From NCBI GenBank assembly GCA_947172415.1, contig OX359199.1, positions 770,001 through 834,000 of the forward strand: 64,000 bases of DNA. Reading direction: 5' to 3'. Positions 2,704 to 60,000 of the stretch are shown here, in pieces; within the stretch, counting starts at the first letter, position 1; each line of letters starts with the position of its first letter. A program made the position numbers and the translations under genes. The DNA comes from Chondrosia reniformis. Its lineage: Eukaryota; Porifera; Demospongiae; Chondrillida; Chondrillidae. The notes under the pieces are model-generated. The model saw only the letters and a program-made list of their open reading frames with translations. It ran no database searches and was not told the DNA's origin.

Positions 2704-3114
2704 TCAAGTGCAGTAAGATGGATTCTCTAGCATTCTCTGCGGACAGAACTGAGGACAACCTGAAGCTACATTCATTTCTGTCTGAGTCATCTGAAAACTA
2801 ATTGTAGTTGTCTGTCTGTATGGCCAGGGGAGAAGTGGGTCATACTCCCCTTTCATGATGGTCAGGAAGAAGGACACATGGCTACCTCTCCCAGATCCAT
2901 CTCCATTCAGGTACACTCTCAAACAGATCTTGTAGCCATGTCTGGATGTGAAGAAGGGAGCACTGTACAGTGACACTGTCTTCCCTAGAACAGCATCTCT
3001 TCTGCGTCGTGTTACATCGGGGATCTTCCACACATAGACACCATTGTAGGTTGTAGCTTGGAGTGACTGGATGGAGAGTGCCAGATCTGTGTAGTAGTCT
3101 TGTAGCTCCTTCAC
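2704..3114 (-). pseudogene. Isolated MATH (TRAF-C) domain fragment
   Basis: The translation runs from the end of the TRAF coiled coil (ELQDYYTDLALSIQSL) through most of a MATH domain. It carries the family hallmark GEYDPLLPWPYRQ and the later MNVASGCPQF. A block of about 25 residues is missing: after PWPYRQTTT the frame jumps to ISFQ, skipping the strand and loop that the intact copies at 25.5 kb and 35.5 kb carry (LMLLALDG...SFKPDE). The frame stops right after ENPSYCT. At its 5' side the match to TRAF breaks at about 3118, near a possible acceptor, and the upstream frame does not fit. No RING or finger exons lie upstream within reach. It shares the internal deletion with the TRAF gene at 19-23 kb, so it is probably a duplicated 3' piece of that gene. 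An unannotated trans-spliced or alternative 3' exon is less likely. Confidence 0.7.
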
Positions 3115-3389
3115 TGCATTGTAACTGTCTTCCCCTTAAAAGAGCAACACATTCTCAAGTAATTCAGTCAACGCATTCTCAAGAAATTCAGTACAATATA
3201 CATTTAAAGAAACATTTACAAATACTCTGAATGTCAAAAAATAATTCAAAAACAGTACAATACAGATTTACAAATACTCTGAATTTCAAAAAAATATTCG
3301 AAAATGATGAATATACATACTCAATGTACTCATGGTACTCTGTACATGTATCAAGTCACTGCATTGTTGAATTTAGTGAATGCGAGGGT

Positions 3390-19131: not shown

Positions 19132-22100
19132 TTAAAATTCTTCGGCTGAAAAGAGCCCACTATCTGTCAATTCCGATGGTCTTACAAAAAATGGAATCAT
19201 ACTTCCACCACTCAGTGGAGAGGGGGGTGGGGTTAAAGACTTTTTCATTGATAGCATTTTCTTTTGAGCATCTTCATCAACTTTATACCTGTAAGATGGA
19301 TTCTCTAGCATTCTCTGCGGACAGAATTGAGGACAACCTGAAGCTACATTCATTTCTGTCTGAGTCATCTGAAAACTAATTGTAGTTGTCTGTCTGTATG
19401 GCCAGGGGAGAAGTGGGTCATACTCCCCTTTCATGATGGTCAGGAAGAAGGACACATGGCTACCTCTCCCAGATCCATCTCCATTCAGATACACTCTCAA
19501 ACAGATCTTGTAGCCATGTCTGGATGTGAAGAAGGGAGCACTGTACAGTGACACTGTCTTCCCTAGAACAGCATCTCTTCTGCGTCGTGTCAAATCAGGG
19601 ATCTTCCACACATAGAAACCATTGTAGTTGGTAGCTTGAAGCGACTGAATGGAGAGTGCTAGATCTGTGTAGTAGTCTTGTAGTTCCTTCCCTGCATGCT
19701 GTAGTTTACCGATGGCTTCCTCTGTGACCACATTACGTGATTGGATTTCAGACTTCATGCGTTGTACTTCCATCATATTGTCTCCAGTCTGTCTTGTTAA
19801 CTCATTCATTCGAGAGTCAATGTGGATCAGTGCTTGATCCACGTGATCCATCTGTATCCTTGGCATCTCATGATTCTTGACTGTTTGATGGTTACTGTTG
19901 AGTACCTCATTCAAGCGTCTCATTACCATCTGTAGATGATAGTGTACATAGGACTCCTCATGTTTGCGCATAGTATCTCCAGCACCCTGTAATATAAATA
20001 GTAAAGAAAATTATACAGAGCAGTCATATTGATGTATTGTTGACGAATGCATAAACAGAGCATTAATGACTGTTATAAAGTACTATAGGACATTTTTATA
20101 CTGGGATGTTTGTAAAGTAGCTACAATTTTGGCTAATGGGATTTACCAGCCTAAATAAGATATTTACATATATTTGAATTATACCTATACACTTATGTAA
20201 GTATATAGACTTTGTACGTACTATATAAAACAGTTATACCAATTTGCTCAACATCAGATAATATTGATCCGACTTACTGCAAAATGACATCCTAATATTG
20301 AGAATCTACATTTTCTATGAACTTGTACACATTCTTGTTCGATGTGTGTTGACATCTGTTTGGAACAGAAGGCATGTAACATGTGTTTAAACAATGTATC
20401 AATATGTTAGTATCATTTACACAAATAATTGATATATGTATCTATAAACTTTGGCCTTATTTTGATACTGAAATTTGGGAAATTTTCCTGTGCAGAATTA
20501 TCATGCAAAAATGTTTTTAAGTGGTTTGAGCCAATCACATTTCTTGATTTGCCAGAAAGAATAACCAACAAGCAAAAATTTTGTGCAAGAAATTCCGTGG
20601 TTTGGGCCAACCTTAAGCTTTAATGACAAAAATTTCCCAAATTACTATACTGTGCTATATTACAACATATACTGTAAAACTAAAATATTATATTGACCTC
20701 ACCATTGCTCTTTGTATTTTTTCCCCGCATCCTTTGATGCAAGGCACTTCGACCTTGTCACATCTTTCAATGTGATCCTATTTATATAGTCGTATAGAAA
20801 CTAGTATTAATTATGTTATATAGACCAGCAATTTAAAGACTTATAAATCATATGGTAAATAGGTGATAATTATGTTTAAATATCTAAAAATGGTCCTATT
20901 ATAGAAACATTTGGATTATCTTGAAAAAACATTACTACATATATATAAGAGACAAATATTCTTAAATGGTTATATTTTAGGTGGTGAACCTGGTGATGAC
21001 CTATTATTGCCTTATCAGTATGCATGGTGTTACTTACTCACTTTTATACTGTTTGCTGTGCAGTTCTTGCCACACCATTCGCATGATTCTGATCTAAAAC
21101 TGCACTTTTTGACATGTCTCTCAAGATTCTTTCTGATGATTCCATCTCTGCACTGTTCATGTGGACAGTCTACTCTAGCTTGAGGACACACCTCATAATG
21201 GTTAGGATACTCTTGATACAGACCAGACCAGGTACATCCTTCATTTGGACAAGTCACTTCAAGAAGATCGAGTTCCCTTGTAGCTGCCTTGTCTGGGAAG
21301 AGCTATTATATATAACAATCAACTATATCAATAATCAAATGAATCCAAATTGAATAACAATATTAACCTGTATACATTATTGAGATCCAGTATTGAAAAT
21401 ATAATGACATACGTGTGATTCTCACTCGTATATGCTTAAAAGATTACATACAAATTAATTATCTATTGACGTGTTAACTTGTCATTGGTATGATATATAC
21501 AACTATAGAGAAACATTGAATCCACTAATTACTTACTATATACATATGAATATCTAACATACCATTTTCCTACATGCTATACTCTGTAATAAAGTAAAAA
21601 GCCTCTATAGGGGAACTAAACCTGGAGAGAGCTTTGGATGAGGATACAGGAGTCTTCTCTTTCTTCTTTTGCTCCACTGCATGGACGAGACAGATATTTC
21701 TGGGAATTCAACCCTTCACCAGTGACCCTGGGAATCTTTGTCTTTTGTGAATGCATGCACATTTAGAAAATAGATAATCCATTTAATAACTATGCATAAG
21801 TTACCAACCTTTTCAGGGTAGATGTCTTCATGACAATTTGGACATTCGATTGTTCTCATTCCACTATTGTTCAAAGATAATGTATATTAATTGGATTTGA
21901 CTTTATCATAGATTTATATACATACAGTTACATAACCTATATAAGCTTAAACTAGCAATATAGTTAGTATTCAAAATAAATGTTTTGGTTGTCATTCCAA
22001 TATGCACCATCATCAGTACATATAATATGACAAAATAGGCATTAAAAAGCGTAAGTCTAAATGGAGATCAAATCAATAATTTAAAACTAAGTGCACAGGG

Positions 22101-22909: not shown

Positions 22910-24109
22910 TTAACTGCTTAAATAACCTATCTATAGTGACTCATTCATTGGTTTGGGGGACTTCCCCTGACCTTTTGTCATGATTATGTGATTTGCGGTT
23001 TTCCTCATTAGATTAGCACGCGAGCAGAGCATGGACCACCTGCACATCATCTTTTCCTTTATCTGAGTTATTGTCTCTATTTTTATATCTGCATAACAAC
23101 TGATGAATCATCATAATATATTGTAGCACATATTATATAGCTATGATCTAATTTTTTTTCTAACAGATTGCATGTTGTGTATCTCTGTCAGATGAAATAT
23201 AGCATTAGCTGATTATTCTTGAAATTGTATATATTCTAAGAAATGGGTCCTTTCACACATATTCCTATATATGTGACCTCACTGCCAAGTTACAGCTTTG
23301 TCACAGTCACTGACTATACGTATATATGTAGATGAAACAGCTGTACAACATATTATCTGCATTTTCTTTGGCTTTATAAGCTTTCCTTAAAAGTTTGAAT
23401 TACTCTAGGGAGAAAGCAAGCCTCGCTCTATTGTGAGGAAGTAAATATGAAATGGCATGTGAAACCAGAGGTGGGTCGCAGATCTAATTGCCTGCACAAA
23501 ACCTTTTCCTTATATGATGGGCCTTTAACCCCCTTCCAGCAACATAATGGTCCTTATCAGCAACAAGTCTATATAGTGGTCTTTTATTTGATGGTGACAT
23601 ATGCAAAAGGTGATGTATATGTAGAGGTCAAGGTGCCAGTTTACAAACATCTGTACACAAACATGGTAGATGCACAAGCATGGTAGAGTGCATATATAAA
23701 CAGGATACAACTTTACTTTCATGAAAAATCTAAGATACCATTTTCCTACATGCTATATGCCATATGCCTATTCTGTAAAAGAGCCTAATATAGGGGAACT
23801 AAACCTGAAGAGAGCTTTGGATGAGGATACAGGAGTCTTTTCTTCCTTCTTTTCCCTTCTTTCATCTTCTCCTCCTCTGGGTCAGACATGTGTACTATCA
23901 AATTTGTACATATTCATTAGCTTTAAAAGGATGTGCACCAATTTCCTGTTTATATAGTAACAATAGCTTTAAAATAAACATAAACACAAAATGACATCAT
24001 TGTCACAAGAATAATTGAATAATTAGGAATCAGTAGTATAACACATATATGTAACATTTAGATAATGGTTCTACTATACAAAGACTACTGCTATATAGAA
24101 TTAAAATTA
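22910..24109. other. Intergenic; interspersed repeat, no gene
   Basis: It contains the TRAF promoter side and a copy of the ~200-bp repeat at about 23730-23895. The frame 23447-23686 has no recognisable feature. Confidence 0.55.
23730..23895 (+). repeat. Copy of the ~200-bp interspersed repeat
   Basis: It shares ccattttcctacatgctata, gaggatacaggagtctttt and the CT-rich tract with the other copies. It ends near gggtcagacatg. Confidence 0.7.
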
Positions 24110-24283
24110 GCTGTGCCGTTCTTGCCACACCATTCACATGATTCTGATCTAAAACCGCACTTTTTGACATGTCTCTCAAGATTCTTTCTGATGATTCTAT
24201 CTCTGCACTGTTCATGTGGACAGTCCACTCTTGCTGAGGACACACCTCATAATGGTTAGGATACTCTTGATACAGATCATATA
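24110..24283 (-). pseudogene. Frameshifted TRAF zinc-finger exon remnant
   Basis: The sequence is homologous to the TRAF exon at 21042-21292. It reads LYQEYPNHYEVCPQ and then shifts frame: cctcagcaagagtggactg here against cctcaagctagagtagactg in the intact exon, a 1-nt loss. After the shift the conserved HEQCRD...LERHVKKC stretch is in another frame. The segment is part of the duplicated block upstream of the chimera. It has no intact partner exon and cannot encode the finger. Confidence 0.75.
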
Positions 24284-24702: not shown

Positions 24703-25197
24703 CTTGTAATAACATGTGTACATACTCTTTGCTTGATAAGCATTTCCTACATAAACACAGAGTGCCCCACACTTTGCAATATACATATACGCATATTGCA
24801 CTATCTATATAGTTTCTGTCAGTTACGTATATAGGCTGTGCACCCTGCATGTGGGTGGCCATATATATTACATATATATATGGATGACCTGCAGCTGGTA
24901 GCCTAGAAAGAGTGGGCATGGCTTATACGTACCCAGGGGTACAGCACTCCTGTGACCATGACTGCATGGTTAAAAATTGGCACTTCTTGTTATTTTTGTA
25001 TGCCTTACATTAATTTATTAGATACTCCTAATATAACCCAATAAAATGTGTAAATGGTTAATAATGAATATGGCTTATTCATTAAAATTTAAACAAACAT
25101 AAAATACAACCATAAAAATACAAAAGCAATTTTGAATAAGCCAAGAGACACATGGTCGTGGTCCCTTTACATGCATGACAATTTGGTACTGTTATGT
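24703..25197. repeat. Segmental duplication of the TRAF 3' flank
   Basis: This matches 18485-19131. Together with the adjoining coding part (25198 to about 25980) it shows that the MATH end of the chimera was copied with several hundred bp of its downstream flank. Confidence 0.7.
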
Positions 25198-27790
25198 TTA
25201 AAATTCTTCAGCTGAAAATATTCCACTATCTGTGGTCGATTCTGATGGTCTGACAAATAATGGAAACATACTTCCACCACACAGTGTAGAGGGGGGTGGG
25301 GTTAAAGACTTTTTCATTGATAGCATTTCCTTTACAGCATCTTCATCAACTTTATACCTGTCACATACTGCACCTTTCACAGGAGCATGAGTTGGTGGTT
25401 TAGGAACTTCCTCTGGTTGTTTTCTGCATTTCAAGGAGATAGTGTCATTCTTGCAGTAAGATGGATTCTCTAGCATTCTCTGTGGACTGAACTGAGGACA
25501 ACCTGAAGCTACATTCATTTCTGTCTGAGGCATCTGAAAACTGCTACTCTTCTCATCTGGTTTGAAGGACTGAGTAATGTCTCGAGACACTCCATCTAGA
25601 GCTAGCAGCATAAGAACGGTTGTCTGTCTGTATGGCCAGGGGAGAAGTGGGTCATACTCTCCTTTCATGATGGTAAGGAAGAAGGACACATGGCTACCTC
25701 TCCCAGATCCATCTCCATTCAGGTACACTCTCAAACATATCTTGTAGCCATGTCTGGATGTGAAGAAGGGAGCACTGTACAGTGACACTGTCTTCCCTAG
25801 AACAGCGTCTCTTCTGCGTCGTGTTACATCGGGGATCTTCCACACATAGACACCATTGTAGCTGGTAGCTTGGAGTGACTGGATGGAGAGTGCTAGATCT
25901 GTGTAGTAGTCTTTTAGCTCATTTACTGCATGCTGTAGTTTGCTGATGGCTTCCTCTGTGGCCACATTACGTGATTGGATTGTTGAGAGGAAGTTACTGG
26001 CTGGAATTGGAGGAGGAACAGGAAGTTCAAATTGAATTCTTATTCCATGAATAGTAACTCACGCTTCACATCGTTATGTACGATATTGTTCTGATGAAGA
26101 TGGTCTAGTCCACCCAACACACTCCTCACTATGTGTTTGGTATTGTCCACAATCAGTTGGAGCACTTCCGGTTCATCCTTGTACTTTAGTAGTAGAGTGC
26201 TGATCCCTCCGTGACCAATCTTGTTGAGGTAGCTTTGCAGGTCTCCGGACATCTTTGGCAGGAAGTGGTAGCAGAAGAACCTTCTTGACCTCTTGGGATC
26301 CTCTTCTCCCATCATCACTGACAAGAGAGGGAGAATGTTCTTGTGGTCCAACCTAGCCATCACATCCACCTCCATGAAGCGGTAGTGAGTCTGAAGAGGG
26401 GAAGAGAAGTGAATAAAATAATATAATATTGAGAGCTAGGAATATATATATATTATACAGAATTGTATTGCTGTGCTGTGCTTGTATTATATATAATAAA
26501 AAATTAATGTTTTACCTTCTTCACTGCAAACTCTTCCCCTTGGAAGTAAATGATGGTGATTGTACCATTCCCTCCTTGACCAATATGTGAGTCTATAGCA
26601 GCTTGTGAGGGAACAGGGAGAACACTACCCTCAGTGAAGAGGGGAGAATTCTGTGTTAGAGAAGAGACAAATCATTAACATATAAGTACGTACCTTATTA
26701 AGCTACAATTGTCCTTTTGAAATATTAATCCACATATGAATCTGTCTGTCTAGTCATAGCTATATTTTATTCTAGATAAACAGCAAAGATTATAATTGAA
26801 TAAACTTTTGACCTTCTCTACTAGGCAGTTTTCTTCCTAAAGTGAGGTCACTGATTAGATTGAATAGCAACCCAATTCATTACTTAAGTAATTCAATATA
26901 CAAAACTAATTCAAAGTCCATAAACTTAGCACATGTACATGTCATATTCTGGCCTTACTAATTAAGTAATGTAGGGATTACCAAGCTGAATCCCCAAACC
27001 CACTTCTACATATAGTTGTGTATACATATAGTTGTGTATACATACGCCTGCCAAATACATATGGAAACACAAAAACATTACATTTCGTATATAAGATAAT
27101 ACAGACAAGATGAACTACTTAAAAGATAATTATAAGTTTGGTGCAGTTAGAAGGAATCCTTATCATCTAGCATATAATGTATAATGTTAATTTTGTATAT
27201 GGTGACCCAGTAGGAAGAACTATATAAAGGTATATATGTGAAGAGTAGGCATCTTCAGACAGTACAAGGTAGCTAAATACATATGTATATAATAAGCATC
27301 TATTTATTGCTAACTGCATGAGCAGTATTTTAGCAATTATCCAATAATTTCAATAATTCATATAATAATTCAATGCAATAATTCACCACTGTAAAAGAGC
27401 ACACATAATAACTGATCAATACTTACATCTCTAGGAGAGATCTGTTCACCGCATCCAGGACACTTTACTGATATGAGATCGCTGTACGGGTAAAAATAAA
27501 CTTATTCATGGCTAATAATGGTATTCATTGTTTGACCATATATAGACTGTACTAGACTATTTAAATAATGTGGTTTGACAGTAGTAATTGATCGGAATAT
27601 TTTTAGCAGACCTCGTATTCAATTTCTTTGTCATCTCTTTAACGCATTCGTAGTCGGCTCGACAGCCACATATAGACTGATACGGTTCCTTAAGTAACTT
27701 CTTACATACTACACAATTGTAGGTTTCCTGTAGTTCGATCTGTTCCAATCGAGCTCTTGGTACTGTGTTCCCATTCAAAGTTTGCGACAT
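25198..27790 (-). CDS. Chimeric RING - kinase N-lobe - coiled coil - MATH protein
   Basis: Exons, 5' to 3': 27612-27790, 27427-27481, 26516-26650, 26063-26390 and 25198-26000. All phases match and total 499 aa. Exons 1-2 give a split RING (YNCVVCKKLLKEPYQSICGC ... CPGCGEQISPRD). Exons 3-4 are near-identical to K4/K5: NSPLF, Gly loop IGQGGNGTITI, EEFAVKK, up to HNDVK. The last exon starts like the kinase exon (PSNFL), then after about 6 codons joins TRAF sequence in frame: PSNFLSTIQSRNVATEEAIS, followed by the coiled-coil end and a full MATH domain (GEYDPLLPWPYRQTTVLMLL). The catalytic loop is kept, but the DFD motif, activation segment and C-lobe are gone, so catalysis is unlikely. The donor of exon 1 (AG|GTCTGC) is weak; an alternative first exon lies at 28391-28530. 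Expression is unproven. Other readings are a duplication-born pseudogene or an assembly join. Confidence 0.65.
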
Positions 27791-28390
27791 ACTGAAGCTT
27801 ATAGTAACTTTAAGGTTTAATCAATTAGCTGATTCACAGTGATATATAGACCGGCTATATTTATACTTCACTAATCCTGACAAGCAAGACACATTGCAAT
27901 TCAGTATTATATATAGAAAGGCGCTATGATGTCATCATCTTTGGGAATGCATTAGGAAACCACTAAACGGTGGGCTTTCCTTCTAGACCATCTTTACTAC
28001 GTATCTCCATCTCAGTAACCTTATCCTTTTGTTGTTATTACCATCGGATTACGTGCACTATAGTGGTGGTTGTAGTTACCGTGGAGTTGTATATCTATGC
28101 TGTGACGCTTGAGGATCATTTCAATCCAAACTCTTTCTTCCGCCTGCTGGAATTCGTTCAATAGAAACTGAGCGTCTTTAATCGTTTCGGATAGATGCCT
28201 AGACAACGATCCGGTAAAGAGACTAATTCAATTACCGACTCTGTTGAAGAGTAAACGTCTTTCATACGCCTGCCGGGTCAAGACCGCGGATACGTATAGA
28301 CATTGCCTACAACTCAAGGGAGTCGTATATCTATGATCTAGAGAGGTGTCAACTATTATAATAAAACATGCAGACGGATCAAAGACTCAC

Positions 28391-47745: not shown

Positions 47746-48128
47746 TTTATCATATTAGAGTCACGGATAAAATGTGGTTTAATACACAATTGCTTTAAGC
47801 CAATTAAGTTGTCTGAGGTCTGCATGTCATTAGTATACTTATCTCACATGCATATCACAGCCTATAATGCAATTTATAATTACTTTTCCTACAAAACATT
47901 ATATATTCAAACACTCATGTTGTTATATATTATAGATGATCATGAAAGTACACATATATATGCATGAATTGTATACTTCATTTTAAACAAAGTACTATTG
48001 TAGTATTACATACAACGACACTAAATAAATATAAATCGGTCAATGTACTGCATGCAACTATATAATCCTATAACAGCAACAGAAGGTATATAAAAGCTAG
48101 GACGTGTGTTATACATATCCTATTTACC

Positions 48129-48836
48129 ATGGATATTAAACATTCTGAAGCACTTGCAGAGAAAAGAGAGCAAAAACAGAGATTTTGCCTCACCACCAAC
48201 TTTCTCTTTGTTCTCTGTGCTGTCACATTCACTATTGCCATTTTGGAAGGAGCAGGACTTATCATAATATGGAAAGATTCGCAAGAACTGGGTGGTAGAA
48301 TTGATACAGTACAAGACCAGCTTATCAATGTTGCCATAGACAACCCTGGCAAAGAAAAAAATGGTTCTACGAGGAAAAAAAGGTTTTATACCTCGAATTC
48401 TGAGCTACAAGATTGTAATTGCCCTCCAGGTCCTCCAGGTCCTCCAGGTCCACCAGGTCCTAAAGGTAAACGAGGTCGGCAAGGTCAGCAAGGTCTTCCT
48501 GGTCCTGCAGGTCTCCAAGGTGATGTAGGTTCTCCTGGTCCTGGAGGTCCCGCAGGTCTCCCAGGTCCTACAGGTGGGCCAGGTCCTGAAGGTCCCCCAG
48601 GTCCCCATGGTGGGCCAGGTCCTACAGGTGGGCCAGGTCCCGAAGGTCCCCCAGGTCACCCAGGTATCCCAGGTCCTGAAGGTGGTCCAGGTCCCGAGGG
48701 TCCCCCAGGTGGCCCAGGTCCTGAAGGTCCCCCAGGTCCTCATGGTGGTCCAGGTCCTACAGGTGGGCCAGGTCCCGAAGGTCCCCCAGGTCCCGAAGGT
48801 CCTCCAGGTCCCCAAGGTTTACCATGTACTCCATGA
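48129..48836 (+). CDS. Type II membrane collagen-like protein, copy 1
   Basis: Single exon, 235 aa. Residues 1-19 are charged and cytoplasmic ([19 protein letters not shown]). Residues 20-48 are a transmembrane helix. Residues 51-70 form a short amphipathic stretch ([17 protein letters not shown]) that could start trimer formation. A basic RKKR at about 82-85 is a furin-type site. A CNC pair comes just before residue 99. About 130 residues of Gly-X-Y follow, rich in [10 protein letters not shown] and GPTGG, and the chain ends in LPCTP. This layout (cytoplasmic tail, TM, furin site, collagen stalk) is that of membrane-associated collagens such as types XIII/XXIII/XXV and of ectodysplasin-like proteins. 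No globular head follows the collagen. A shed trimeric matrix or adhesion protein is inferred. Confidence 0.88.
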
Positions 48837-49812
48837 GACCTAGGGGCATAGGTCTTCAAGAACATCAATGGACTGATGTAGTGGTACAATTTATTATATT
48901 TACTAACAATTATTATAAACCAAAATATAGTAACAATATAGGTGTAGGCCTGCTATATTTCAATGTACTATGTACTTGGCTTATATTGAATATGAATATT
49001 CATATATATGTATATACCAGTATGGTAAGGTTGATCTTACATATAATCTTTTGCATGACATGCATGCAATTAAAAGGTATAGAATGGCAGAGAGTACGTA
49101 TACGGTTTTATACTCTCTAAATATATAATAGGGTTGATATGAAATGCAGATGAGCTTTATTCAAATGATATCGATACAATTTGCCATTTCAGAATTATAA
49201 TTTATTCTACATATATATGGCTCTTGTTATATAATTGCATTATTGAGGAGAAATATTGAAGGGAAATAATTTCATGATTAAGTACAAAAAGTGAAATCTC
49301 AGTTTCCCTATAAAGTTATGGCTATTATGATGGGGTATATATGTAAATAAGAAATGTAGAGATTTGTTCCAACAGGCCTATATACGTAAGCCTATAAGTA
49401 TTCCTATGGCTCATGTAAAATGAACTGTGGTTACTCACCAATTCCTAATCTTCTTATTCAGCACTTATATCATCCACAATTTCCTTCTATAATGGATACA
49501 CTGTACCTGGAACTAGGTTGTTCACTTTGTCAGTACATGTCTAGCCAAGTTTTACTACGATGTAACAAAAGTCCACCACATCATGTGTAAGTTTCAAATT
49601 GAATACATATATACAATCACCACTTTGTCCTACTCTCTCCATTCAAACACTCATTTATATAAAGGAAAGCACACATGAACAGTACACTTCATTTTGTTGT
49701 ATTATTATTACAGTGATACTAAAATGAGTATAAATCTGTCAACATATATATACATGTATATATAAAAGGACGTGTGCTAGTGTATACATGCATCTGTTAT
49801 ATCCTATTTACC
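48837..49812. other. Spacer between the two collagen genes
   Basis: The first ~300 bp after the stop match the 3' flank of copy 2 almost exactly (ctaggggcataggtcttcaa onward). The final ~70 bp match the promoter of copy 1. No gene is present. Confidence 0.65.
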
Positions 49813-50496
49813 ATGGATATTAAACATTCTGAAGCACTTGCAGAGAAAAGAGAACAGAAACAGAGATTTTGCCTCACCACCAACTTTCTCTTTGTTCTCT
49901 GTGCTGTCACATTCACTATTGCCATTGTGGAAGGAGCAGGACTTATCATAATATGGAAAGATTCGCAAGAGCTGGGTGGCAGAATTGATACAGTACAAGA
50001 TCAGCTTATCAATGTTGCCATAGACAACCCTGGCAAAGAAAATAATGGTTCTGTGAGGAAAAAAAGGTTCTATTCTGACCTACCAGTTTGTAATTGCCCT
50101 CCAGGTCCTCCAGGTCCTCCAGGTCCACCAGGTCCTAAAGGTGATCGAGGTCTGCAAGGTCTGCAAGGTCATCCTGGTCCTGAAGGTCTCCCAGGTGATG
50201 TAGGGTCTCCTGGTCCCAAAGGTTCCCAAGGTCTCCCAGGTCCTACAGGTGGGCCAGGTTCTCCTGGTCTCCAAGGTCTCCCAGGTCTCCGTGGTCCTAT
50301 AGGTGAACCAGGTCCCGAAGGTCCCCAAGGTGACCAAGGTATCCAAGGTCCTATAGGTGGTCCAGGTCCTGAGGGTCCCCCAGGTGGCCCAGGTCCTGAA
50401 GGTCCCCCAGGTCCTCATGGTGATCCAGGTCCTACAGGTGGTCCAGGTCCCGAAGGTCCCCCAGGTCCCGAAGGTCCTCCAGGTCCCCAAGGTTGA
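49813..50496 (+). CDS. Type II membrane collagen-like protein, copy 2
   Basis: Single exon, 227 aa, start chosen at MDIKHSEA to match copy 1; the frame is open 13 codons further upstream. The first ~80 residues are nearly identical to copy 1, including the transmembrane helix. A basic RKKR site precedes [19 protein letters not shown]. The collagen part differs more ([27 protein letters not shown]). The final codons show a TTA to TGA change relative to copy 1, so this protein stops at PQG and lacks the LPCTP tail. It arose by tandem duplication of a ~1.2-kb unit with both flanks. The faster divergence of the repeat region against the conserved membrane part is consistent with slippage in the Gly-X-Y array. 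Confidence 0.87.
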
Positions 50497-54075: not shown

Positions 54076-57000
54076 TTAAGAGCTGAAAAATTCGTGTTTC
54101 AAGAGTTTTCGGCAAATTGGTCTATCCTTTGGTACCACCTGAGATATTTATCAGAAAGGGTGAAGTGTCAAATACATATATACTGTATTGAATACCATAT
54201 TAATATCATTATGACAGTCAGCGGATCAGGAATTTATACAGAAGTTTGCCAGAAGCTTAATAAATCAACAAATCACTACTGCAAATTCAGAATAAATTAA
54301 ACAGTGGCATTTGATAATATTGTTTAACAGGAGTACTATTAAACAACCTTTCTCTCATTAACTTCTGATCAAAGAGTTTGTTTCACTCTGCAAGGTCTTA
54401 ATAGGTACTCCATTAGTCTTAATAGGTACTCCATTTGTATTATTGCGCAACAACACATGAATGTGGCACATGTAAAATGTGGGGGATCCTCTTTTCAACA
54501 TGAACTGTTAAGTAGTTAAAACTTCTGACAGTATTTTCTTCTTTTAATATCTACAATTCAAGCTCACTTGAAGACAGTCTTCTACAAACTGCCACAACTG
54601 AGTCCAGTTTGGGTAAACAGACTTGAGCAGTTTAATCTTCTTAATCTTTCCAACTGCAGCAGACTCTTTATTCCATGGAAAGTACTTGTGGTTACAGAGA
54701 GTGATAAAGGCCATCTGCATTAATGAATAAAAAGCAAAATTCATAGCACCTGTTGCCATGAGCGACCGTGGAAGTATATTACAGCCACTATCACCAGCTA
54801 CACCCTCTCCATAAAAACACCATAAAAAAGATCTGTAACTTACGTGTTTCTGTGTATACGGCCCTGAGTGACTGAGGAATATCTTCAACATACTAGCTCC
54901 TACTGACCATATGTCTGGTGCAGTCAGTGTGTCATAGTCAGTGAGATCAGATCTTGTTCTTGTAGCAATCAAGATGTACTGAATGATAAAATAACTGGTC
55001 AACTTCACCTTTAATTCATTAATCAGTCTTTACAGTCACCAGCTCACCTCCACAGGTCTGTATCCGGGTGTACCAATAGGACTGGACCTCTGTAGTTGTC
55101 CCACTAAACTGACATTGGTCTGTAGTCTTGGAAGATCAATAGCTGAGTCAAAGTCACCGACCTTCACCTCAAACCTCTGCCCATGGATACACATGAATGG
55201 ACCTTCACAAGTGCAGTGCATGTCCAACAGGAAGTTGCTGGCTGGAATAGGAGGAGGAAAAGGAAGTTCAAATTGAATTCTTACTCATTGTTTAGCTATG
55301 AATAGTAACTCACGCTTCACATCATTATGTACGATATTGTTCTGATGAAGATGGTCTAGTCCACGCAGCACACTTCTCACTATGTGTTTGGTATTGTCCA
55401 CAATCAGTTGGAGCACTTCCGGTTCATCCTTGTACTTTAGTAGTAGAGTGCTGATGCCTCCGTGACCAATCTTGTTGAGGTAGCTTTGCAGGTCTCCGGA
55501 CATCTTTGGCAGGAAGTGGTAGCAGAAGAACCTCCTTGACCTCTTGGGATCCTCTTCTCCCATCATCACTGACAAGAGAGGGAGAATGTTCTTGTGGTCC
55601 AACCTAGCCATCACATCCACCTCCATGAAGCGGTAGTGAGTCTGTAGTGGGGAAAAGAGAGAATAAAATGGTCTCACATTCTGATAACTATTTATTGAGT
55701 GAAATTTCACTTATTTATAGAAATCAGATATAGTTAAATTTGTTCTCTATGTTATGTCCACCTCTGCACTGAGAGTTCAACTAGGCTTATAGACTAACAA
55801 TGAATATCTTCTAAATCTCTCATAATAGATTTTTCAGTCTATTAAAGTGCAGGTTCCCAAGGGAATAGCAAATTCAAAAGTGATGATACGCCTAACTCAG
55901 GGGAGGGTAAACAAACATAACAAACCAGTCTAGGATATATATTTTGTTAGGTAGAAACTGGTCTAGTGGATTTACACAATTCATAGCTTATAATCTTTTG
56001 AAATGATCATCTTTTGACTTTTAGAATGTCTAAAGAAGTAGTTTTGTTGTCTCTCTTGATCAGTGACTTCATAGCTTATAAACCAGCAATTTTGAAGTGA
56101 TACAAGGTAATGCATAGGAAATGGGGATACTATTTCAGTACTGAAAGCAACATTCAGTCATCAGCACTGACTGTATCTAGTCAACCAGAGATCTGTAATA
56201 TGTAGTTCCTGAAAATCGGCTGGGCTACTATTCAGACATCCCTCAGACGTATCCTATTGGCTAAGAAGTTCCCCTGTCTACATAATGCCTATTGTATTGT
56301 ATTGTATTGTATTGTATTGTATTGTATTGTATTGTATTGTATTGTATTGTATTGTATTGTATTGTATTGTTATGTATTGTATTGTATTGTTATGTATTGT
56401 TATGTATTGTATTGTATTGTATTGTATTGTATTGTACATATTGTATTGTATTGTATTGTACTGTATTGTACATATTGTATATATTGAATTCTATTGGTCT
56501 GGCATACTACAAACCTTAAAATCACCACTAACATACAAACATGAGCTTTATGTAATGTGTCCTTATACATGCTAATGAAATAGGGCATATACAGTATAGT
56601 GAAAATGTTCCTAAGTCAATGAGTATCAAGAGGAAATTGGAATGGAAATGTCGAATAGTTGTGTAAGTTATAATCAAATGGAAAATCTACACACATCAAG
56701 GAGAGACTAAACACATTGGCCTCAAATGTAAGGAAACATTTTCACAATAATTAACAACAGTTTTGTGGCTGCAATCGACATGCACTGTATATTTTAGACA
56801 TATATGAATGTCTTACCAAATACAAGTTGGCCGTCAAGTGTATGCACACAATTTTACACTTGACAGTTTACTCAATTAGGCAATAAAACTAAATTACACT
56901 GTAAATCAGTATGTGTAAAAAAAGTTTGGGCAATAAGAAATTGCAGTAGACATATGATCTTACTATAGTACATGTTTATTGGCTAGGCAGTAACATTATA

Positions 57001-60000
57001 GGTATAAAAATTCCATTTTCTACTTCTGATCAAGAAGTGTACTTTACAAGTGAGTTATACATACAACATCTGTTCTTGCGTGTGTCAAAGGACCACGCCA
57101 TATCATATTCCGTATGTACTGTGTAATATGTACCTTCTTCACCGCAAATTCTTCCCCTTGGAAGTAAATGATGGTGATTGTGCCATTCCCTCCTTGACCA
57201 ATATTTGAATCTATAGCAGCTTGTGAGGGAACAGGGAGAACACTACCCTCAGCGAAGAGGGGAGAATTCTGTGTTAGAGAAGAGACAAGTTATTAACATA
57301 TACGTACCTTATAAAGTTACAACTGTCCTTTGAAATATATAATATAAATGCCATATATGATTATGTCTGTCTAGCTATATTTTATTAATGATAAACAACA
57401 AAGATTAAAATTGAATACACTTTGACCTTCTCTACTAGGCAGTTTTCTTCCTAAAATGAAGTCACTGATTAGATTGAATAGCAACCCAATTCATTACTTA
57501 AGTAATTCAATATACAAAACTAATTCAAAGTCCATAAACTTAGCACATATTCTGGCCTTATTAATAAAATAATGTAGGGATTTCCCAAGCTGAATCCCCA
57601 AACCCACTTCTACATATAGTTGTGTATGCATACGCCTGCCAAATACATATGGAAACACAAAAACATAGAGTGAACAGCTGGCATAACAAGCTATATTCAT
57701 ACAAAACATACTGCGTCAGCTACACTATATTCAGTGCTCATATGAAACACGTTCGTAGATACACCACAAACATGTTCGTAGATAGACCACAAACATGTAT
57801 TCCCAGAGCTTAAATACTGCAGTCTCCTTTTGACAATGAAAATACATGTACTTCTACATGTACTTCTACATGTACATGTACTAAAAATGGCCGACATCAG
57901 TGCAATTGTACCAACGTTGCACACCCTGTACAAGATCCCATAAACCCTCTGTGATATTACAGTCTAACATAAGCTTTTTGTATACAATTAAGAGAGAGCT
58001 AAGGATCTAAAGAAGAACTTCCTGAAAGATGTCCAGGGTCACCGATGAAGTGTGGTATTCACAGAAACAGCTGTCTACCCTAGTGAAACAGAAAATAAAG
58101 AAAAGACTCTTGTATCCTCATCCAAAGCTCTCACTATAGTCCTTTTACTGATGTAGTATGTAGGAAAATGGTGTTTCAGATTACTCGTGAGATGCCCTAC
58201 TTTGGCTGTGTGACTCACTGTATATAGTATACATCCTGGCTGCTTGTCTGCGCACACTATCTCAGGCCTGCTATTGTTCTGTTTCTTCACAGGAGGGGAC
58301 GGGTCTGGCACTGAAGGACTCACTACCACAGCTAATGGACTGGTCTTCTTAGCTGTAACAGCTTTAGCAGACAGCCTCTCCAAGACTCTGTAACACAGAC
58401 ATTAATGAGTGTAGATGATTAGAGGAGGTGTGGCAAGTGTTGTATGGGCGTGAGCTAGCTAATTAGAATACACAGACCCTGGGAGGTGTGTGGGATGTAA
58501 TACGTAGCTAATTGACCATCCAATTTACAAATCTTCCCAAAAACTATACATTAGACCTAACCAGATCGGCCTGATGATATACGTACAAACATCTGACATG
58601 CAGGTGTAACATAAGCATGCATAATTATGGCATGCACATATTTAGTCTCAGACAAATCACACACCGATAATACATTTTGATAGGCCAATTGGCTGGTAAT
58701 CAACAAGTGCTGGGGGGGGTTGTGTCATCTAAAATTGCATGATTGCATGTGTATACAAGTAGAACATACATATACTTCCCTATTTGCAGTGCACTAATGC
58801 ATGTATAATAGAATTCTTGCAGCACCCTGCATGGGCATGCCCATACAGAAATATTGTTAATACATAGTCCAGCACCCAGTTAAGCAAATATTATAATCAA
58901 GCACATACCTAAGTCTTAAAATTACAGTCTGAATCACTAATTTGCCAATAGACAATTAAAGGTCTGTAAAGAAATTAATTAACCTAGCCACTTTCATCTT
59001 TAAATTCATCAAAGGCTTCAGGTGAAAGGTTAGGGTATAATTGACTAGTTGTACTCTAGTGTGTGTGTGTGTGTGCATGTATGACATACTTTCCCATCTG
59101 CAAGGCATAACTTTCTTTGACTTTGAAAGGAAAGGCATCCGAGAGTGTAGCTACAACGAGTGATTTGGTAGCCTCAACGTTAGTCTCTTCTAGCGGAGTA
59201 AAGTCATCCTTTTTCTTCTCCTTCGGGTCACTGGCAATTGGAATCTTAAGCTGGTCAATGGAGGCATAAAATGGAGTCTGGTCTGAGACATATTTACTGG
59301 AACAGCTAGTAGATTCTGTGGAATTGTGGCTAGAAGGAACCTGGACTTGATCTGACCTATCTTCTCGAATGTCCTTTTTCAGAGGGAATGATTCAGCTTC
59401 GACATTTCTAAATGTTTTCAATGGAAAAGCTGCAGAGCTACCAACAAATTGTGCAATATGTAAGGATGTTTTGGAGCTCTTTTTCCCTGGCAATGATGAA
59501 AAGTCTGTCCTTTCTCTAGAAGTGGGACCTTTGGCAAGATTTAATGAATTACGTTGTTTTACACGACCTGACTCCTTTGAAAGCTGCTTAGAAGCTTGCG
59601 CAAATTGATGTGTCAGTTCCTTGGAGAGGTCAATCTGACTAATAAAATCACCTCCACTTTCCTTATCAGAAGGTTCACCATCACTTACAATTTGATCACC
59701 CGCGCCTTCTAATGAATGGGCACTGCTGGTCTTTGCAGTACATAAAAGTGAATCTCCCTTGCCAGAATCCTCAGTCGCTTTTTCCTCGTACACGTATGAC
59801 TCATTATGAGTAGATAGAGGCTTAAAACTGCTAGGATTCGCGAAATAAAATTGACCTACTGCTAGTCCATCCACATCTTCAGTTGGTGGCTTAAATCGAT
59901 AATTCCTCTTCATTGGTCTATCACCTCTAATTATGCTTCCCACTTTGTAAGCAGATTCTGCCGTACGACTTTGAGGTATACACACTATACTTGAAATCAT

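Follow-up and report, generated by a model that had tools for sequence, protein, structure and literature searches.

An in-frame TRAF–kinase–TRAF chimeric gene in an interleaved kinase/TRAF array of the sponge Chondrosia reniformis

A reading frame on chromosome 11 of Chondrosia reniformis joins parts of two gene families, which raises the questions of whether the join is genuine, how it came about, and what a product of it might do. The DNA analysed, referred to as the window, is a stretch of 64,000 nucleotides (C11:770001-834000), and positions are window coordinates unless prefixed. Loci are named K (kinase) or T (TRAF) followed by their kb position on chromosome 11, e.g., K827 and T789, while K3 and K5 denote kinase genes of the window. 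The chimeric gene occupies 27790-25198 (C11:795198-797790) on the minus strand, with five exons (27790-27612, 27481-27427, 26650-26516, 26390-26063, and 26000-25198) that add up to 1500 nt, or 499 codons and a stop. In all four introns the internal donor starts with GT and the acceptor finishes with AG, and the exon ends have phases 2, 0, 0, and 1, in agreement with the five exons, single frame and matching phases that a first-pass annotation had proposed. Pfam assigns Pkinase to residues 98–239 (E 1e-12) and a TRAF-type MATH domain to residues 304–423 (E 2.2e-39), and the in-frame TRAF–kinase–TRAF structure is held with high confidence. Its parts, in order of transcription, are as follows.

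27791-28003, minus: TRAF-type 5' flank, probably on the side of the promoter; homology to C11:707178-707800 and C11:607321-607924 reaches 28003
27612-27790, minus: exon 1, with the start codon and the N-terminal half of a TRAF-type RING; ends GAG|GTCTGC in phase 2
27427-27481, minus: exon 2, remainder of the RING (CPGC); phase 0 end, with a donor GAT|GTAAGT found in T707 too
27079-27380, minus: middle of intron 2, with no match to either parent by whole-genome DNA search; dispersed repeat, with the first breakpoint inside
26651-27078, minus: kinase-gene part of intron 2; 26513-27078 matches C11:827131-827666 at 87%
26516-26650, minus: exon 3, glycine loop and lysine strand (GQGGNG...FAVKK); 45 codons, matching six other chromosome-11 kinase loci
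26063-26390, minus: exon 4, middle of the kinase up to HNDVK in the catalytic loop; 98% residue identity to K3, Pkinase E 1e-12
25988-26000, minus: start of exon 5, kinase-derived (PSNFL), from the join alignment and a 111-base search
25982-25987, minus: second breakpoint, filled by six bases; search query positions 54–59, matched by neither family
25427-25981, minus: TRAF part of exon 5, coiled coil followed by MATH (TRAF-C); eight paralogues at 91.7-96.6%, MATH E 2e-39
25198-25426, minus: exon 5, C-terminal tail (RKQPEEVPKPP...FSAEEF) and stop; 24871-25542 matches C11:616453-617138 at 94.9%
24871-25197, minus: 3' untranslated or flanking DNA of TRAF type, by homology to TRAF copies

The joins were mapped by comparing the window with 264 kb of chromosome 11. 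On the upstream side, TRAF-head DNA at 27381-28003 matches C11:707178-707800 (92.6%), and 27406-28003 matches C11:607321-607924 (93.1%). On the downstream side, stretches from 25408, 25427, or 25430 to 25981 align with eight TRAF coil-MATH copies at 91.7-96.6%. The kinase-like block between them (25988-27078) thus has TRAF-gene DNA on either side. A block of at least 1 kb in this setting had been anticipated; it measures about 1.09 kb, next to an intron stretch of ~300 bp (27079-27380) that matches neither parent and is partly dispersed repeat. A whole-genome DNA search for a parent of this stretch returned itself, a 40-base match at the edge of the TRAF head, and otherwise short repeat matches only. 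The intron upstream of exon 3 does match that of K5, as claimed, at 87% over 57131-57666 including exon 3, a wider span than the 57420-57660 first given. The 3' flank resembles that of the TRAF at 19 kb as noted earlier (79%, 24881-25361), but C11:616453-617138 is a closer relative (94.9%, 24871-25542).

The switch to TRAF coiled coil inside one exon, also noticed at the outset, is sharp, with kinase homology stopping at 25988, TRAF homology starting at 25981, and the six bases 25987-25982 assignable to neither family. Here the kinase copies read AACTTCCTGTTGG, followed by GACATG in five of six copies and GGCATG in one, the TRAF copies read CTGAAATCCAATCACG, and the chimera reads AACTTCCT, six other bases, and AATCCAATCACG. 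A 111-base query across this join was searched against the whole genome (117,379,552 bases in 15 contigs, with 7,633,987 bases for C11) and found 17 places: one full match, which is the chimera itself, six kinase-side matches that stop at base 53, and ten TRAF-side matches that start at base 60. Because the full match is unique, the fusion is single-copy in the assembly as far as the search sees. The homologies of head, kinase, and tail are far beyond chance. By our estimate, each of the two new junctions would fall in frame about 1 time in 3, so the in-frame outcome alone has a chance of about 1 in 9.

Near-identical tandem copies are a classic site of misjoins, and an assembly artefact uniting two paralogous loci therefore has to be weighed. 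There are no N bases in the 264 kb of chromosome 11, and private substitutions (those of the chimera alone, scored at sites where the aligned copies are unanimous) occur in the head, kinase exon 4, coil-MATH, and C-tail. Because each of these parts carries such changes, none is a copy of any other assembled locus in the comparison. The description of the assembly, odChoReni1.1 (PMC12181767), gives 117.37 Mb in 14 chromosomes and a mitochondrion, 7.63 Mb for chromosome 11, and PacBio HiFi coverage of about 70x with QV 69.8. Its totals imply a mean HiFi read of about 12.9 kb, to be compared with a 2.6-kb gene, and both coverage and read length count against an artefact. Among the matches listed, a database entry on a contig of 1,105,668 bases, unlike C11 in length, agrees with the tail in 162 of 163 residues, the first being a start codon; this entry stops short of the junction, is marked as window-encoded, and may rest on the same reads. 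We consider an artefact at 25981-25992 unlikely, and a union of two paralogous loci by misassembly very improbable. PMC12181767 also names gene sets and an RNA run from the same specimen, ERR10177766.

The surroundings offer both kinds of parent. On the minus strand the order is K827 - K800 - chimera - T789 - K785 - K780 - T772 - K762 - T748 - K738 - T725, i.e., kinase and TRAF pieces interleave in one orientation from 827 to 725 kb of C11. K785 and K780 are adjoining kinases, and T772, T748, and T725 are fragments (MATH pieces without heads). T805, a TRAF on the plus strand, separates K827 from K800, and further plus-strand TRAF copies are located at 607-641 kb. Kinase exons 3-4 are present at seven chromosome-11 loci, with an eighth kinase locus on C3; exons 5-7 follow in six of the seven and are missing only in the chimera, the exon 7 match of K827 being in two pieces. 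Match statistics agree throughout between the kinase stretches of 736-738 and 760-762 kb and point to a recent duplication of about 23-24 kb.

Tandem arrays are a known source of chimeric genes, by deletion or unequal exchange, and the chimera probably originated through two deletions in the interleaved array. Starting from a T-K-T stretch of TRAF and kinase genes in the same orientation, one deletion would have led from intron 2 of the upstream TRAF into intron 2 of the kinase, and the other from kinase exon 5 into the last exon of the downstream TRAF, where end joining would have left the six filler bases. Insertion of a single kinase segment into one TRAF, with loss of the zinc-finger exons, would yield an identical final structure, and later gene conversion could supply the T616-type end of the tail. 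That route, however, requires an insertion, loss of the intervening exons, and a tail exchange, whereas the existing interleaved order makes deletions simpler, and we regard it as unlikely. As for chimeric genes of tandem arrays in general, same-orientation neighbours are fused here and the parent types survive, but unlike the usual fusions this one, read as the product of two deletions, has three segments and two breakpoints, one of them within an exon and in frame.

The head of the chimera is ~94% identical to its paralogues T707 (94.2%, 568/603) and T607 (93.6%, 567/606). The 60 residues of exon 1 are matched 100% across all three, and the RING of T607 differs from that of the chimera by one residue. 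T607 (C11:607538-610683) is an intact TRAF of 492 residues with zf-TRAF and MATH domains; its model, like that of K3, was spliced by eye at GT/AG. The RING and zinc fingers of T607 align with TRAF5 (E 9e-15) and TRAF6 (E 8e-13). On a provisional assignment of the eight RING ligand places in the TRAF5 alignment, ligands 1, 2, 3, 6, and 7 are Cys in both proteins, and T607 has Cys at the His position, Asp as the fifth ligand, and Cys as the eighth, where TRAF5 has Asp. The Pfam model zf-C3HC4_4 stays below cut-off for the whole chimera (E 0.17) and for the head alone (E 0.011), and T607 likewise has no RING model above cut-off. The TRAF-type zinc fingers (PF02176), found in T607 with E 3.9e-18, are absent from the chimera, where the RING is not followed by a linker helix and zinc finger 1; kinase-derived residues come after exon 2 instead. 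In TRAF5/6, according to PMC5702613, building ubiquitin chains requires a RING dimer together with a linker helix and zinc finger 1, and these two elements, contributed by the partner, are important in the transfer of ubiquitin. Because the RING is degenerate and weak, and the linker and zinc finger 1 used by TRAF5/6 RINGs are deleted, an E3 function is unsupported, and so is the initial designation as an E3 head.

T707 (C11:705767-707800, minus) comprises a TRAF head and zinc fingers, and at 653-705 kb, the expected place of its tail, the locus map has no coil or MATH match. Downstream of the chimera, a zinc-finger exon fragment at 24106-24279 (minus) is 94.7-97.1% identical to five copies and 86% to T707, and is broken, since its matches run in two frames. 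About 600 bp upstream of the chimera, a second RING-like first exon (MAGSQRVGEHKELGYNCTLCNKLLLEPYQSPRGCRVDYECVKEMLM, 28530-28391, minus) has a phase 2 end followed by GTGAGT, and spliced to exon 2 of the chimera it would keep the frame; it is without the third zinc ligand.

The kinase part is nearly identical to the array kinases up to the catalytic loop, as the first-pass annotation had it. It covers positions 4–132 of the 263 in the Pkinase profile (PF00069) and retains the glycine loop, FAVKK, and HNDVKPSN (HxDxKxxN). The DFD motif of the parent is gone, as are the activation segment and the remaining C-lobe, so that the chimera has neither a complete kinase domain nor the set of Lys, HxD, and DFG-type motif. 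Because the domain stops at the catalytic loop, no enzyme activity is expected of this part, in agreement with the loss of activity presumed earlier. The parent kinase K3 (32402-29262) is intact, with 787 residues and a full Pkinase domain (profile 4–263). At this and the other K loci, the parent type has HND for HRD and DFD for DFG, and its first ~470 residues give no further Pfam match. Family placement of the array kinase was attempted in two ways. One of 1272 candidates in a protein search was above cut-off (P0221, 55% identity), too few for the purpose, and the solved kinases nearest to it (led by CDKL3, STK24, and OSR1; best E 2.8e-9) point to no clear family among the best 60 of 434 weak matches. 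Within intron 3 of the kinase K5 there is a long run of ACAAT-like units at 56290-56490.

A half kinase that folds as a pseudokinase-like dock would make the product a working scaffold, bringing a kinase partner to TRAF-bound receptors. The retained glycine loop, lysine, and catalytic-loop HxDxKxxN fit such a role, as do private changes in the kinase exons that are all synonymous (three, with no non-synonymous change). A kinase C-lobe is unlikely to close without the DFG-type motif, activation segment, and later helices, all of which lie beyond the covered half of the profile, and docking by this piece would be improbable, the weakest part of any functional reading. The binding of kinase partners that had been envisaged is likewise not borne out, most of the C-lobe being lost.

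The MATH domain, on the other hand, is complete in the chimera (PF21355, E 2.2e-39; PF22486, E 6.4e-30), and the best relatives of exon 5 among solved structures are TRAF3 (E about 1e-59), TRAF1, and TRAF2. The positions that do not vary across 30 chosen sequences include W53, R60, G84, Y85, Y92, D96, S153, F154, and G166 of exon 5. The alignment with TRAF3 shows R, Y, and D of the strand CLRVYLNGD to be shared by both proteins, together with SSS and the ASG turn; we take these residues to be receptor-peptide contacts in TRAF2/3. The receptor binding attributed to this domain would accordingly be within its reach, judged by its completeness and its match to TRAF3 structures. Most of the coil in the last exon of the parent TRAF is gone, and the shortened TRAF-N coil keeps, by reading, an a/d pattern (I, L, V, L, Y, L, I, L) over 25 residues, more than three heptads.

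For the C-tail and 3' flank, the nearest copy is T616 (96.9%, 533/550). T607 is without a C-tail of this type, part of which is present in the TRAF at 789 kb. Since the head is nearest T707 and T607, the tail is nearest T616, and T607 has no such tail, head and tail do not derive from one known TRAF. In T616, nothing but the end of MATH is present, in the shortened form of T789, and the tail of the chimera is therefore a mosaic too. The shortened type constitutes a TRAF subtype (T789, T772, T748, T725, and T616) in which MATH is without about 25 residues in frame, in the LMLLALDGVSRDITQSFKPDE region; it is found at window positions 19291-19747 and 2709-3119, and at C11:725599, C11:748851, and C11:616447. 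An isolated TRAF coil fragment at C1:10170930-10171091 is 89% identical over residues 23–76 of the exon-5 frame.

Private changes were divided into synonymous (S) and non-synonymous (N). The head exons have 2 S and 0 N (against two copies), kinase exon 3 has none, and exon 4 has 3 S and 0 N (against six copies, those at 738 and 762 kb giving identical pairwise counts). Coil and MATH, compared with up to 12 copies, have 6 S and 5 N, and the C-tail has 0 S and 4 N (against T616 and T789). Bases 25944, 25921, and 25914 are examples of private changes, and a ten-base gap lies in intron 4. Three of the five N changes in coil-MATH are in the coil near the join, at heptad positions b, b, and e, with none at a or d. 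A first coil-MATH count against eight copies, with 7 S and 8 N, was reduced by four sites, namely tail positions 555, 556, and 560, which lie at the limit of reliable alignment or beyond it, and a Y-to-S change at 545 also seen in T616, and the final count adds T616, T789, T772, and T725. Earlier tests used an interim coil-MATH count of 7 S and 6 N, whereas the P values given here rest on 6 S and 5 N. A test without the N changes in coil and tail (0 N of 10) had been chosen after inspection of the data and was set aside.

Over all parts there are 11 S and 9 N, with P 0.01 to 0.004 at a neutral N fraction of 72-76%; for head (RING) plus kinase, 5 S and 0 N would have P 0.002 to 0.001 if neutral. 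In the head block, private changes affect 22/367 non-coding compared with 2/234 coding sites (Fisher P 0.001), and in the kinase block, against two copies, 10/172 compared with 7/476. These counts show that most parts have been constrained on the lineage of the chimera. Constraint on the fusion itself does not follow, because changes before and after the fusion are indistinguishable and many of the private ones may predate it. In the C-tail the private changes, and a raw pairwise comparison with T616 over the last 118 aligned codons (17 N, 3 S), are consistent with no constraint. The 3' flank has private changes at 2/283 sites (against T616 and T789), and because this differs from the 22/367 of the head block, the parts have different histories and the fusion cannot be dated. 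At the 3'-flank rate, a neutral gene would still be stop-free with a probability of ~0.65, indels not counted.

The putative protein would trimerise through its shortened coil and bind receptor tails with its complete MATH domain, and the kinase piece would serve as an inert or unstable linker. Because zinc fingers and a working kinase are absent, the protein would fill receptors and mixed TRAF trimers without ubiquitin chains being built, as a decoy or dominant-negative TRAF. The half kinase domain may also misfold and take the whole protein along. For the combined reading, a young chimeric TRAF that would be a receptor-binding decoy if translated, we see an about even chance; the decoy role taken by itself appears doubtful, and an expressed RING–half kinase–MATH protein that would tune TRAF signalling by joining receptor-bound TRAF trimers seems somewhat unlikely.

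In the main rival reading, recombination left a by-product that is unexpressed or has no function, with a frame open by luck and youth; we put this below an even chance. The array contains several fragments, such as the two-frame zinc-finger piece and the headless MATH pieces at 772, 748, and 725 kb, and the exclusively non-synonymous private changes of the C-tail, the few changes in the 3' flank, the good odds of a neutral frame staying open, and the modest improbability of in-frame joining all fit a remnant. Against it stand the absence of N changes in RING and kinase, the excess of S over the neutral expectation across all parts, and coding changes rarer than non-coding ones in both blocks. 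Splice sites, the promoter-side flank, and MATH are also retained, although part of this conservation may predate the fusion.

Compared with TRAF3, TRAF1, and TRAF2, the chimeric TRAF has the N-terminal RING position, TRAF-N coil, and complete TRAF-C/MATH in common, but a half kinase replaces the zinc-finger exons (ZF3, ZF4, and ZF5 of T607) and most of the last-exon coil. TRAF1 is described in PMC5702613 as a RING-less TRAF that forms mixed trimers with TRAF2. It resembles the chimera in having MATH and coil and no working E3 module, as far as this can be deduced for the chimera, which differs in that a degenerate RING is present. TRAF1 is not known to carry a kinase piece. The array kinases (K3 and its copies, an unclassified family of Ser/Thr type) share exons 3-4 with the chimera but continue through the full domain to profile position 263, where the chimera stops at 132. 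A search with the whole chimera found no protein with kinase and MATH domains among the best 120 of 929 matches (7997 scored candidates), and one for relatives of exon 5 found none with a kinase domain among the best 120 of 956 matches (1391 candidates). Because many sponge entries look like single-exon frames, a spliced fusion could escape such searches. Searches of openly licensed papers turned up no previous description of a RING-kinase-MATH protein.

TRAF and kinase families act in the same receptor pathways. Here partners from two such families are fused with their parent types next door and an exon-5 breakpoint readable to the base, a clean and testable case of module gain and loss in signalling proteins of an early-branching animal. 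If the expressed reading is true, the interleaved array would be a natural workshop for kinase/TRAF fusions; if the gene is silent, it is still a good example of array turnover, and nothing beyond. Elsewhere in the window, two similar, short reading frames with collagen-like GPP repeats lie in tandem on the plus strand, at 48066-48836 and 49723-50496.
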